NCBI GenBank assembly: GCA_015521085.1
Contig: WAOW01000010.1
Location: forward strand, 1-64,000
DNA length: 64,000 bases
DNA from: Candidatus Thermodiscus eudorianus
GTDB lineage: Archaea > Thermoproteota > Thermoprotei_A > Sulfolobales > Acidilobaceae
Direction of reading: 5' to 3'
Below the pieces are notes generated by a model, which ran no database searches, was not told the DNA's origin, and was given only the letters and a program-made list of their open reading frames with translations. How positions within the stretch are numbered: the stretch's first letter is position 1; each line of letters opens with the position of its first letter. The position numbers were made by a program, and so were the translations under genes. This document shows, piece after piece, positions 3,335 to 6,305 of this stretch.

Positions 3335-4453
3335 TTAGATAAGAGATAGGAAACTAGTCCCTCTTCCGCCACGGTACTCTCCCTTGATATTGAGCTTGTA
3401 GCCACAACGGGGACAGGTGTTTCCCTTCTCTAGTTTCCAGGAGACTATGGTGAAGCCTATCCTCTCTATGACTCGGTAGCCGCATTTCGGACAGTACGTG
3501 TGCTCTAGGGGGTGGGGGGCGACGTTTCCTATGTAAACATGGACTAGGCCCTCGTCCATTGCTATACTGGCTAGCTTCTCCAACGTCTCCAAAGGCGTTG
3601 GCGGGTAGTCCATCATCTTGTAGTCGGGGTGGAACCTCAGGAGGTGGAATGGCGTCTCCGGGCCAAGGTTCTCCACTATCCATTTCGATAGCCTACGTAC
3701 ATCCTCTTCCCTATCCCCGACCCTGGGTATGACGAGGTTTGTTATCTCTATGAACCATCCATTGTCCTTCATCGCGAGTATAGTGTTGAAGATCTTCTCC
3801 GGGTCTAGAACGCCTATAAACTTCCTGTAGAACTCCCTGTTGCCCCCACCCTTGAAGTCAACTGTAGCTGCATCCATTAACCCCCCTATCTCGTCTATCG
3901 CTTCGGGCGTGGCATAGCCGTTGGTAACCATCGTATTAAACAGGCCGTGCTTCTTAGCTAGCTTCGAGGTATCATACATGAACTCGAAGAAGATAGTCGG
4001 CTCGTTATAGGTATAGGAGATTCCGTCGGCGCCGTACTCTAAGGCCGCATCTACTACCTCCTCCGGGGTCCTGTAGACTCCATACAGGCCCTTCTCTAGC
4101 CTGCTCTGGCTGATAACCCAGTTCTGGCAGAATTTGCAGAAGAAGTTGCATCCAACCGTGGATATGCTAAGCACCCTGCTCCCCGGGTAGAAGTGGTAGA
4201 GGGGCTTCTTCTCTATGGGATCCACATTCATAGCAGTCAACAAACCGTAGACCAGCGTGTAGAGCTTACCGTCTATGTTCTTCCTCACGCCACAAGCCCC
4301 GTAACGGCCCGGAGCTATGACGCACCTCTTCTCGCACAGGTTACACTTGACCCATCCAGGCCTATCGGGCACAGGTTCCCATAATGCCGCTGGCCTCACA
4401 TTGGGCCTAGCTAGCGTGCTAATCCTCCTACCAGCTGGCTTGGATGGAACCAT
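3335..4453 (-). CDS. Radical SAM enzyme of the AmmeMemoRadiSam (PflA-like) family
   Basis: A 372-residue radical SAM protein. It carries the cluster motif CNFFCKFC (Cys 102, 106, 109), an N-terminal four-Cys set (CNLCEKRC and AC, 37-54) and a C-terminal zinc-ribbon-like pair (CPKC near 321, CPRC near 347). Length and layout match the archaeal enzyme that usually accompanies AMMECR1 and Memo proteins; neither partner is in this window. The substrate is not known to me, though a glycyl-radical-activase-like or protein-modifying role has been proposed for the family. The start overlaps the end of the upstream paralogue by 43 bp, so the two are probably co-transcribed and translationally coupled. 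Confidence 0.85.
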   Translation of the reverse strand: MVPSKPAGRRISTLARPNVRPAALWEPVPDRPGWVKCNLCEKRCVIAPGRYGACGVRKNIDGKLYTLVYGLLTAMNVDPIEKKPLYHFYPGSRVLSISTVGCNFFCKFCQNWVISQSRLEKGLYGVYRTPEEVVDAALEYGADGISYTYNEPTIFFEFMYDTSKLAKKHGLFNTMVTNGYATPEAIDEIGGLMDAATVDFKGGGNREFYRKFIGVLDPEKIFNTILAMKDNGWFIEITNLVIPRVGDREEDVRRLSKWIVENLGPETPFHLLRFHPDYKMMDYPPTPLETLEKLASIAMDEGLVHVYIGNVAPHPLEHTYCPKCGYRVIERIGFTIVSWKLEKGNTCPRCGYKLNIKGEYRGGRGTSFLSLI

Positions 4454-5397
4454 TTCACCCCGCCCTCCGTAGATAGTAGTAGTTGCTCGGGGGTCTTCTT
4501 CCTTATACGGCCTCTAAAGGCGAGCTTGTAACCGCACTTCCAGCATCTCTCATCGTCGAGGACCTCAAGGGCCCTTAACACGCCCTCGTCCCGTGAGGCT
4601 ATTGGAGCCTTGCATCTGGGACAGTATGTATCTAGTCTTGAGTATAGGTCATTGTGTATATAGACGTATGGCATCCTCCTCTTGAGCTCCTCGTACAGGT
4701 CCCTCAGGGGACCCCCTCCTTTATGGTCTTCGATGAACACGTGTACCGGCCTCTCGGAGCCACTTAGCGCTAGCACTAGTGGATGCAGCCTCCAGAAACT
4801 AGGCTCTTTTATGTAAGCCGATACCTCTATCCAGGGCTTCTCAACTTCTAGTAAATCATAGATCAGCCTTATGGCTTCACCTGGCACCGCCGGGTCGACC
4901 GAGTAGTCTTTCATGTAGTCTATTACCGCAAAGTCCAGTCTCTCCACTACGCTAGGGCTCGATAGACCCAGCGTACGGGCCCCCACGCGGAATCCGTGCC
5001 TCTTAAAGGCTTCAATTAAATCCAACAACTCGTCCTCTCCGAGCGAGTTCAACGGTTCTAGTCCGTCGAGGAATACGGCATCTACCCTCCACTGGCGCGC
5101 CTTATACAGGATCAGACTGGTATCAACGGGCATCAGGGCTAGCCGGCTTCCGTCGCCGAAGACGCATATTGGGAATCCTTCGCATTCGAACAGAGTGCCG
5201 GCGTGGCCGGCCAGGGCTATCCTGAGTATGACCCCGCCCGGAGTATAATGATATAGGGGTATCGCCTCGGCCGAGCTCAAGCCCAGCATCGCTACTGGAA
5301 TCATCGTGCTTCCTTGCTCTTCCCTTGGCACTACTCGGTTAACCTCCTCTAGGCTTACATGGGCGTCTACAGTTAATTTCCTTGACATCCCATACAT
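4411..5397 (-). CDS. Degenerate paralogue of the adjacent radical SAM enzyme (predicted non-radical pseudoenzyme)
   Basis: A 328-residue protein aligning by eye with its downstream neighbour. IPLYHYTPGG (46-55) matches KKPLYHFYPG, and the C-terminal VYIHNDLYSRLDTYCPRC then CWKCGYKLAFRGR matches VYIGN...YCPKC and CPRCGYKLNIKGE, so a zinc-ribbon-like tail is kept. The CxxxCxxC site is not: AGHAGTLFEC stands where VGCNFFCKFC should be, leaving one of three cluster cysteines, and the N-terminal four-Cys set is absent. It therefore should not assemble the SAM-cleaving cluster. It may be a partner subunit or scaffold for the active enzyme. ATG 5397 or ATG 5388 could be the start; its 5' end faces prs. 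Confidence 0.7.
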   Translation of the reverse strand: MYGMSRKLTVDAHVSLEEVNRVVPREEQGSTMIPVAMLGLSSAEAIPLYHYTPGGVILRIALAGHAGTLFECEGFPICVFGDGSRLALMPVDTSLILYKARQWRVDAVFLDGLEPLNSLGEDELLDLIEAFKRHGFRVGARTLGLSSPSVVERLDFAVIDYMKDYSVDPAVPGEAIRLIYDLLEVEKPWIEVSAYIKEPSFWRLHPLVLALSGSERPVHVFIEDHKGGGPLRDLYEELKRRMPYVYIHNDLYSRLDTYCPRCKAPIASRDEGVLRALEVLDDERCWKCGYKLAFRGRIRKKTPEQLLLSTEGGVKWFHPSQLVGGLAR

Positions 5398-5417
5398 TTG
5401 GAACAGGTGTGGGGTCT

Positions 5418-6305
5418 ATGGCCGTAATTATAGCGGGGCCGAGCCCTGCCAGCGCAGAGTTAGCCTGGAGCATCGCTGACGCCGCCGGCGTTAGAATAGT
5501 TGATCTGGACTGGAAGAGGTTCCCCGATGGAGAGCACTATGTACGTGTTAGAGGTGATGTACGGGGGGAGGATGTGTTCGTGGTTCAGACTATGAGTCCT
5601 CCTCAGAACGACTCCCTGGTTCAGGCGCTGCTACTCGCCGATGCAGCCATCGGTATGGGGGCTGAGAGGGTTCGATTGATAGCGCCGTACCTGGCTTATT
5701 CCAGGCAGGATAGGAGGTTTCTAGAAGGTGAGCCTGTGAGTGTTGAGGTAGTCTTGAAGAGTCTTAGATGTGCTGGCTATGACTGGCTCCTGACTGTCGA
5801 AGTCCACAAGGAGGAGTCGTTGAAGGCGTTCGATGGCGAGGCCTACAACCTTTCTCCGTACGAGTATATGGCTGGGAGGATCAATGTCAGAGGCGATATC
5901 CTTGTTCTCGCCCCTGATGTTGGGGCTCTCGATAGAGCCAGGCGTTTGGCCGGTGCGTTGGATGCGGAGTACGACTATCTGGTGAAGCACAGGGATCGTA
6001 TCACGGGGGAGATAGTGGTTGAGCCCAAGGAGATCCCTGCTCGGGGTAAGACGGTGGTTCTCGTTGATGATATCATAAGTACTGGGGGGACCCTGGCGAA
6101 GGCGGCCTCTATGCTTTTGAGCCAGGGAGCCGAGAGGATCTATGCCCTCGTTGCCCACGCGCTCATGGTGGGTGGGGCCCTGGAGAAGTTGTCTAGGGCT
6201 GGGATAACGAAGATCTATGCCGCGAACACGCTTCCAGCGAAGAGCCACGAGATTATAGAGTATGTCGATGTCGGGCCTCTAATAGCTGAGAGCCTCCCGG
6301 TGTAG
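5418..6305 (+). CDS. prs: Ribose-phosphate pyrophosphokinase (PRPP synthetase)
   Basis: A 295-residue enzyme that transfers pyrophosphate from ATP to ribose 5-phosphate, giving PRPP for purine, pyrimidine, histidine and tryptophan synthesis. It shows the RFPDGEHYVR segment, SRQDRRF of the ATP flexible loop, the VEVHKEE catalytic segment and the PRPP-binding loop VVLVDDIISTGGT near the C terminus. The frame is open to 5382, but ATG 5418 gives the usual MAVIIAGP N-terminus with a GGGG stretch just before it. It begins a tight block with the next two genes (3-bp gap). Confidence 0.93.
   Translation: MAVIIAGPSPASAELAWSIADAAGVRIVDLDWKRFPDGEHYVRVRGDVRGEDVFVVQTMSPPQNDSLVQALLLADAAIGMGAERVRLIAPYLAYSRQDRRFLEGEPVSVEVVLKSLRCAGYDWLLTVEVHKEESLKAFDGEAYNLSPYEYMAGRINVRGDILVLAPDVGALDRARRLAGALDAEYDYLVKHRDRITGEIVVEPKEIPARGKTVVLVDDIISTGGTLAKAASMLLSQGAERIYALVAHALMVGGALEKLSRAGITKIYAANTLPAKSHEIIEYVDVGPLIAESLPV

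Follow-up and report, generated by a model that had tools for sequence, protein, structure and literature searches.

A cluster-less paralogue encoded beside an AmmeMemoRadiSam-type radical SAM enzyme in archaea

What does a radical enzyme do once its chemistry is gone? The question is raised by two overlapping genes of the thermophilic archaeon Candidatus Thermodiscus eudorianus, found in the 64,000-nucleotide stretch of DNA analysed here (the window). One encodes a radical SAM enzyme (hereafter rS); the gene upstream of it encodes a related protein (hereafter Up, gene up) without the radical SAM cysteine triad, and stages of this cluster loss are preserved in living relatives. AmmeMemoRadiSam proteins are widespread, and their radical SAM member (TIGR04337) is still labelled hypothetical by NCBIfam, with the status hypoth_equivalog. 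A dedicated, often co-translated partner of rS, if that is what Up is, would provide a handle on the rS substrate. Human MEMO1 and AMMECR1 are members of the partner families. Memo-Ammecr1 systems are referred to Burroughs et al. (2019) in PMC7159879. In the part of the literature on AmmeMemoRadiSam, radical SAM pseudoenzymes and AMMECR1/MEMO1 that we covered, we found no description of the up-rS tandem.

The two proteins and their cysteine motifs

The original prediction described an active radical SAM enzyme and, overlapping it, a cluster-dead paralogue. Both reading frames, with their coordinates and overlap, are as it gave them (Table 1), and it was correct on the LYHFYPG block of rS, the LYHYTPG block of Up, both zinc ribbons and the VGCNFFCKFC sequence of rS versus AGHAGTLFEC of Up. 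rS belongs to TIGR04337 (327.4 bits, E = 8.6e-98, curated cut-off 220), matches Radical_SAM (78.8 bits, cut-off 29.5) and has the radical SAM motif in its triad sequence. The closest solved fold to its model is that of the PFL activating enzyme (3cb8, Foldseek E = 3.7e-14), and the model is also matched by QueE chains.

Table 1. Features of the up-rS locus (window coordinates)
Feature	Coordinates	Strand	Evidence or conservation
prs, ribose-phosphate pyrophosphokinase, divergent neighbour	5382..6305	+	PF13793, 100.7 bits; likely start ATG 5418
Up, cluster-less radical SAM paralogue, 328 aa	4411..5397	-	BLASTP, hhalign, AlphaFold2 model, Foldseek
E44-x-x-P-L-Y-H50-x-x-P-G54 element of Up, common with rS	5236..5268	-	E44, H50 and G54 invariant in alignment A1
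Degenerate radical SAM motif of Up: H65, C72, C78	5164..5205	-	Joint alignments with rS
DGLEPL of Up, GGE motif remnant (GGEPL in intact relatives)	5050..5067	-	Joint alignments
E191 of Up (E236 of rS)	4825..4827	-	Invariant in all Up and rS rows
H219 of Up (H270 of rS)	4741..4743	-	19/19 in f1, 12/12 in rS; varies in intact Up relatives
C-terminal zinc ribbon of Up: C259, C262, C285, C288, with R269	4534..4623	-	Alignments
Overlap of up and rS, 43 bp	4411..4453	-	Comparable overlaps recur in relatives
rS, radical SAM enzyme, 372 aa	3335..4453	-	TIGR04337 AmmeMemoSam_rS; Radical_SAM PF04055
N-terminal cysteine quartet of rS: C37, C40, C44, C54	4292..4345	-	Invariant in A3; missing from Up
CxxxCxxC of rS: C102, C106, C109	4127..4150	-	Invariant in 32 aligned rS proteins (alignment A3)
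C-terminal zinc ribbon of rS: C321, C324, C347, C350	3404..3493	-	Invariant in A3
Truncated transcription-factor-S-like zinc ribbon protein, 92 aa	2963..3241	-	PF02150, 28.6 bits; context cluster C6

There is no family for Up in Pfam or NCBIfam. Its match to TIGR04337 is confined to the ribbon region (21.4 bits, cut-off 220), so that it is not a member, and the best of its intact relatives reaches 65.9 bits against the same cut-off. The original prediction nevertheless held that Up is a paralogue of rS, and this is borne out. BLASTP aligned the two proteins over 305 positions with 50.8 bits (E = 1e-11), whereas the best of 2000 shuffled Up sequences scored 29.6 bits; the barrel part alone, with the ribbon removed, still matched with E = 7e-6, and comparison of the Up and rS profiles by hhalign gave a probability of 99.8% (E = 1.6e-28, 261 columns). 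An intact Up relative (L034) passes both PF04055 (34.8, cut-off 29.5) and PF13353 (36.8, cut-off 22). The AlphaFold2 model of Up (pLDDT 90.4, pTM 0.89) has QueE as its top Foldseek matches (E = 4.8e-5, probability 1.00, TM 0.63 by target length), and below E = 0.001 it matches nothing in the PDB but three chains of this radical SAM enzyme. Up and rS are true paralogues whose common descent is well supported, and Up is confidently predicted to have kept the partial (beta/alpha) barrel fold. No other family fits Up better.

The true start of Up may be M32 (codon 5302-5304), not the codon at 5397, since homology to relatives sets in around residue 30 and the confidence of the model is low over the first 30 residues.

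Up lacks the three-cysteine CxxxCxxC motif of the radical SAM superfamily. The position of Cys 1 is occupied by H65; C72 corresponds to Cys 2, and C78 is probably Cys 3, displaced by a widened spacing (C72-EGFPI-C78). The predicted loss of two of the three triad cysteines thus holds for Cys 1, but C72 and probably C78 remain. Among 19 aligned proteins of the window's family (f1; families are designated f, genera g, genomes G and loci L), position 1 is a cysteine in none, position 2 in 18 and position 3 in 16, mostly with the wider spacing. The N-terminal cysteine quartet of rS is gone from Up in the f1 alignment, as had been predicted, and N178 and K201, from the SAM-contacting region of rS, are not kept. 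In radical SAM biochemistry all three cysteines are needed for the SAM-binding cluster to form in its usual manner. Having lost Cys 1, Up would therefore, by established biochemistry, neither form the usual site-differentiated [4Fe-4S] cluster nor cleave SAM to the 5'-deoxyadenosyl radical, and it presumably has no radical SAM activity.

Other parts of the enzyme have been kept. The GGE-like motif remains as G-x-E-P in most of the 19 f1 proteins, and the glutamate of the E-x-x-P-L-Y-H element is found in 38/40 Up rows and 12/12 rS rows. Within f1 no variation is seen at E44, H50, E191, H219 and Y246, which match residues of rS, and every aligned Up and rS row has the four ribbon cysteines and one arginine unchanged. 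H248 (4654-4656, minus strand) is present in 17/19 f1 proteins. In the predicted barrel H219, E191 and H248 sit in strands, where they possibly form a new metal or ligand site.

Distribution, gene order and history of the cluster motif

When 121 genomes of the order were searched with a profile, up was clearly present in 50: 25/25 in f1, 10/10 in f3, 2/2 in f4, 4/4 in f5, 6/6 in f7, 2/2 in f10 and one genome in f8. Weak, shortened or very divergent forms were seen in f8 (G052) and f6 (G040 and G050), and the same search found no up in f2, f9 and f11 (65 genomes, all with rS). Every f1 genome that is at least 90% complete has a long up reading frame. In a phylum-wide sample of 250 genomes there were just two matches outside the order, both of rS length (340 and 367 aa). 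Outside the order but in the same class, loci L144 and L145, from two families, carry up beside rS with the motifs GCPVDCEVC and GCPLDCSPC plus GGE. A scan of genome contigs with one protein returned one close relative, a Thermodiscus MAG (Acidilobaceae in NCBI).

The state of the cluster motif differs between families. CxxxCxxC is intact in f3 (10/10) and f4 (3/3, also with GGE). In f10 Cys 1 is replaced by tyrosine and in f7 and f5 by other residues, and positions 2 and 3 are both cysteines in 10/10 rows of these three families; in f6 and f8 all three triad cysteines are gone. The Up family is thus a rare graded series with three, two or no triad cysteines and a largely conserved flanking gene order, and the effects of losing radical chemistry are therefore testable across natural orthologues.

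Several copies deserve separate mention. The shortened f6 frames, L042 2840-3538 (-) and L044 2356-3096 (+), are 233-247 aa from stop to stop; they keep the ribbon, have no cluster cysteines and lie in a different neighbourhood that is common to both genomes. In G003, of the window's genus, up is split over two overlapping frames (L008 1486-2408), which reflects either a genomic frameshift or an error of assembly. G026 has two up-rS loci of different types (L004 and L123); its contig C258 is similar to the genus of the window, with 86% identity to the rS found there, and may be foreign to the bin. There is also a second full-length radical SAM subfamily of rS-like ORFs (L107, L108, L109, L112, L113, L121 and L122), which many of the order's genomes have alongside their main rS and whose motifs include FSGWGCNFRCPWCQN. 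It scores ~280-340 bits against rS profiles; two of its members score 190 and 230 bits against TIGR04337, around the cut-off of 220.

Families f4, f10, f13 and f16 have the genes in the order RNase Z - TrmG10-like methyltransferase - prs, divergent from up - rS - GPN-type GTPase, scored whole or up to the contig ends, and other families show parts of it (the first two genes were named by inspecting their sequences; for prs and the GTPase the identity was checked against Pfam). The ancestral locus is prs<- ->up-rS-GPN GTPase. The prs side is conserved across the class, and the conserved gene order ties together orthologues of up at 20-30% identity. In f3 rS has moved away and up adjoins the GTPase; in f2, which has no up, rS lies directly after prs.

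Adjacency of the two genes, which the original prediction had proposed to test, is conserved in 8 of the 11 sampled f1 genera and also in other families. In f1 a single gene intervenes in g4 and the genes are separate in g6 and g13; they are adjacent, usually overlapping, in f4, f8 and f10, adjacent in f13 and f16, and apart in f3, f5, f6 and f7. In most adjacent pairs rS starts 1 to ~60 bp inside the end of up, so the overlap in the window is not an artefact of one start codon. The 92-aa protein downstream of rS scores 41.3 bits against TIGR01384, below the cut-off of 64.75. This transcription-factor-S-like ribbon gene is conserved downstream of rS in f1, and in g13 (L097 and L102) it stays by up though rS has moved.

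In the tree, Up and rS rows fall on two sides of a single branch (support 100/100), with the intact f4, f13 and f16 Up rows near rS. Because of this position, the single branch and the existence of intact relatives, the cluster was most likely present in the ancestor of Up and was lost secondarily in f1. In the unconstrained tree there are at least three changes of cluster state among the tested rows, and an AU test that held the cluster-less rows together gave p = 0.236, so that a single loss of Cys 1 is not rejected. It is well supported by sequence comparison that Up is an old, separate archaeal lineage without a family name and formerly a second cluster-bearing radical SAM protein, and the duplicate, by the same kind of evidence, stood beside rS before the families of the order split. 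The description of Up as a dead paralogue was therefore partly right: the cluster motif is lost and the gene is kept, but Up belongs to an old lineage that is intact in some relatives and is not a simple copy of its neighbour.

Selection and the possible roles of Up

Six f1 pairs, one of them near saturation, have usable dS and give dN/dS ratios (Nei-Gojobori) of 0.135-0.164 for up; the values for intact families are 0.126 (f4) and 0.213 (f3), and those for rS are typically 0.03-0.05, with 0.157 in one partial-gene pair. As f1 is at the level of intact f4, the cluster was lost without lasting relaxation of selection. The sequence of Up evolves at about four times the rate of that of rS, with a within-genus identity of 56% versus 79%. 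Up is retained by purifying selection and is not a pseudogene, a reading that we rejected on the f1 ratios. Fast divergence, the absence or truncation of up in some families and the broken copy in G003 are what a decaying gene without function would show, but ratios of 0.13-0.16 in several pairs, the long reading frame in each f1 genome of at least 90% completeness, the invariant ribbon and the confident fold make decay highly improbable.

Our preferred reading, to which we give slightly better than even chances, is that Up, once an enzyme, serves rS in f1 as a non-radical subunit. There is good support for the descent of Up and the loss of its cluster, whereas the complex is our inference, as are the heteromer and the presentation of substrate suggested in the original prediction. 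An ancient duplicate of an AmmeMemoRadiSam-type radical SAM protein stood beside rS with a [4Fe-4S] CxxxCxxC site of its own. In the window's family it lost Cys 1, and presumably radical chemistry with it, and purifying selection has preserved its barrel, the E-x-x-P-L-Y-H element, E191/H219 and the zinc ribbon of four cysteines. The adjacent and usually overlapping genes in most f1 genera favour the subunit role. Co-translated with rS as its non-radical subunit, Up would use the ribbon and the retained barrel pocket to hold or position a substrate or partner, or an AMMECR1 or Memo protein, and leave the radical chemistry to rS. The C72/C78 pair may now form a disulphide or bind a metal. The roughly fourfold faster change of Up counts against a subunit role, being unusual in a tightly bound core subunit. 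A fixed pairing is disfavoured because the genes are apart in several families and genera and because three families have rS without up; rS in f2, f9 and f11 therefore does not need Up. The presence of rS in every sampled genome that carries up says little, since rS is found in 121/121 genomes.

A less probable account has the same evolutionary history, but in it Up acts alone as a repurposed independent binding protein or non-radical metalloprotein, by means of E44/H50/E191/H219/H248 and the ribbon, and its adjacency is inherited from the ancestral locus together with translation coupling. Up persists apart from rS in f3, f5, f6, f7, g6 and g13; H50, H219 and Y246 are invariant and H248 nearly so (17/19) in f1, but these residues vary among intact relatives, which is what the fixation of a new pocket would look like; and the dN/dS of f1 is about equal to that of intact f4. 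However, adjacency and overlap have been kept in 8/11 f1 genera, and H50, E191 and H219 also occur in rS, which fits a shared ligand. That Up still binds an iron-sulphur cluster, redox-active or even SAM-cleaving, through C72, C78 and other ligands seems improbable. The retention of Cys 2 (18/19) and Cys 3 (16/19) in f1, and of both in 10/10 rows of f5, f7 and f10, exceeds what is expected of a site simply abandoned, but position 1 follows no pattern (H, I, V, R, E, K, T, G, Q, A, S, L), N178 and K201 of rS are not kept, and the cysteine pair is gone in g2 and incomplete in g10, where Up persists all the same.

A broader version of the subunit reading can be put forward tentatively, and we consider it rather doubtful. 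The tandem may have begun as a two-radical-SAM system on the AmmeMemoRadiSam pathway, one member of which repeatedly lost its cluster in separate hyperthermophilic archaeal families and turned into a non-catalytic subunit that puts a cysteine pair and the barrel pocket to new use. If repeated loss is true, a single order would hold a natural gradation leading from a radical enzyme to a pseudoenzyme subunit.

The AmmeMemoRadiSam system and related proteins

The partner genes AMMECR1 and Memo had been reported as absent here. They are indeed missing from the neighbourhood, but the genome has both elsewhere, Memo on contig C5 and AMMECR1 on contig C1. The window's genome therefore has the AmmeMemoRadiSam system in the sense of rS, AMMECR1 and Memo in one genome, and the three genes, being on different contigs, are not adjacent there. 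Among the 121 genomes of the order, rS is present in 121, AMMECR1 in 119 and Memo in 120; in G051 (f7) AMMECR1 lies ~2.2 kb upstream of rS.

Several known proteins invite comparison. The PFL activating enzyme (3cb8, 3c8f) resembles rS in fold and matches it in sequence (E = 6.5e-13), although it has ~245 residues and lacks both the C-terminal ribbon and the N-terminal cysteine quartet of rS; our analysis gave no sign that rS activates a glycyl radical enzyme. To judge by its name, the NCBIfam pseudo-SAM/SPASM protein TIGR04347 (pseudo_SAM_Halo) offers an archaeal precedent for a radical SAM relative that has lost its cluster. It is of the SPASM type, matches 3/22 Up relatives weakly (best E = 4e-4) and has no listed match to the window's Up at E<=10. 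The closest solved fold to the Up model, QueE (7-carboxy-7-deazaguanine synthase; 5th5, 5tgs), is related in fold only, with 12-15% identity, and is a catalytically active radical SAM enzyme. The nearest comparison is with TIGR04337 itself: Up has its E-x-K-P-L-x-H element, a partial barrel and the C-x2-C...C-x2-C C-terminal ribbon, and the intact relatives in f4 also carry the N-terminal cysteine quartet and CxxxCxxC, whereas a long branch of its own (1.64 changes per column, 100/100) sets Up apart, and in the window Up is without the radical SAM cysteine triad.
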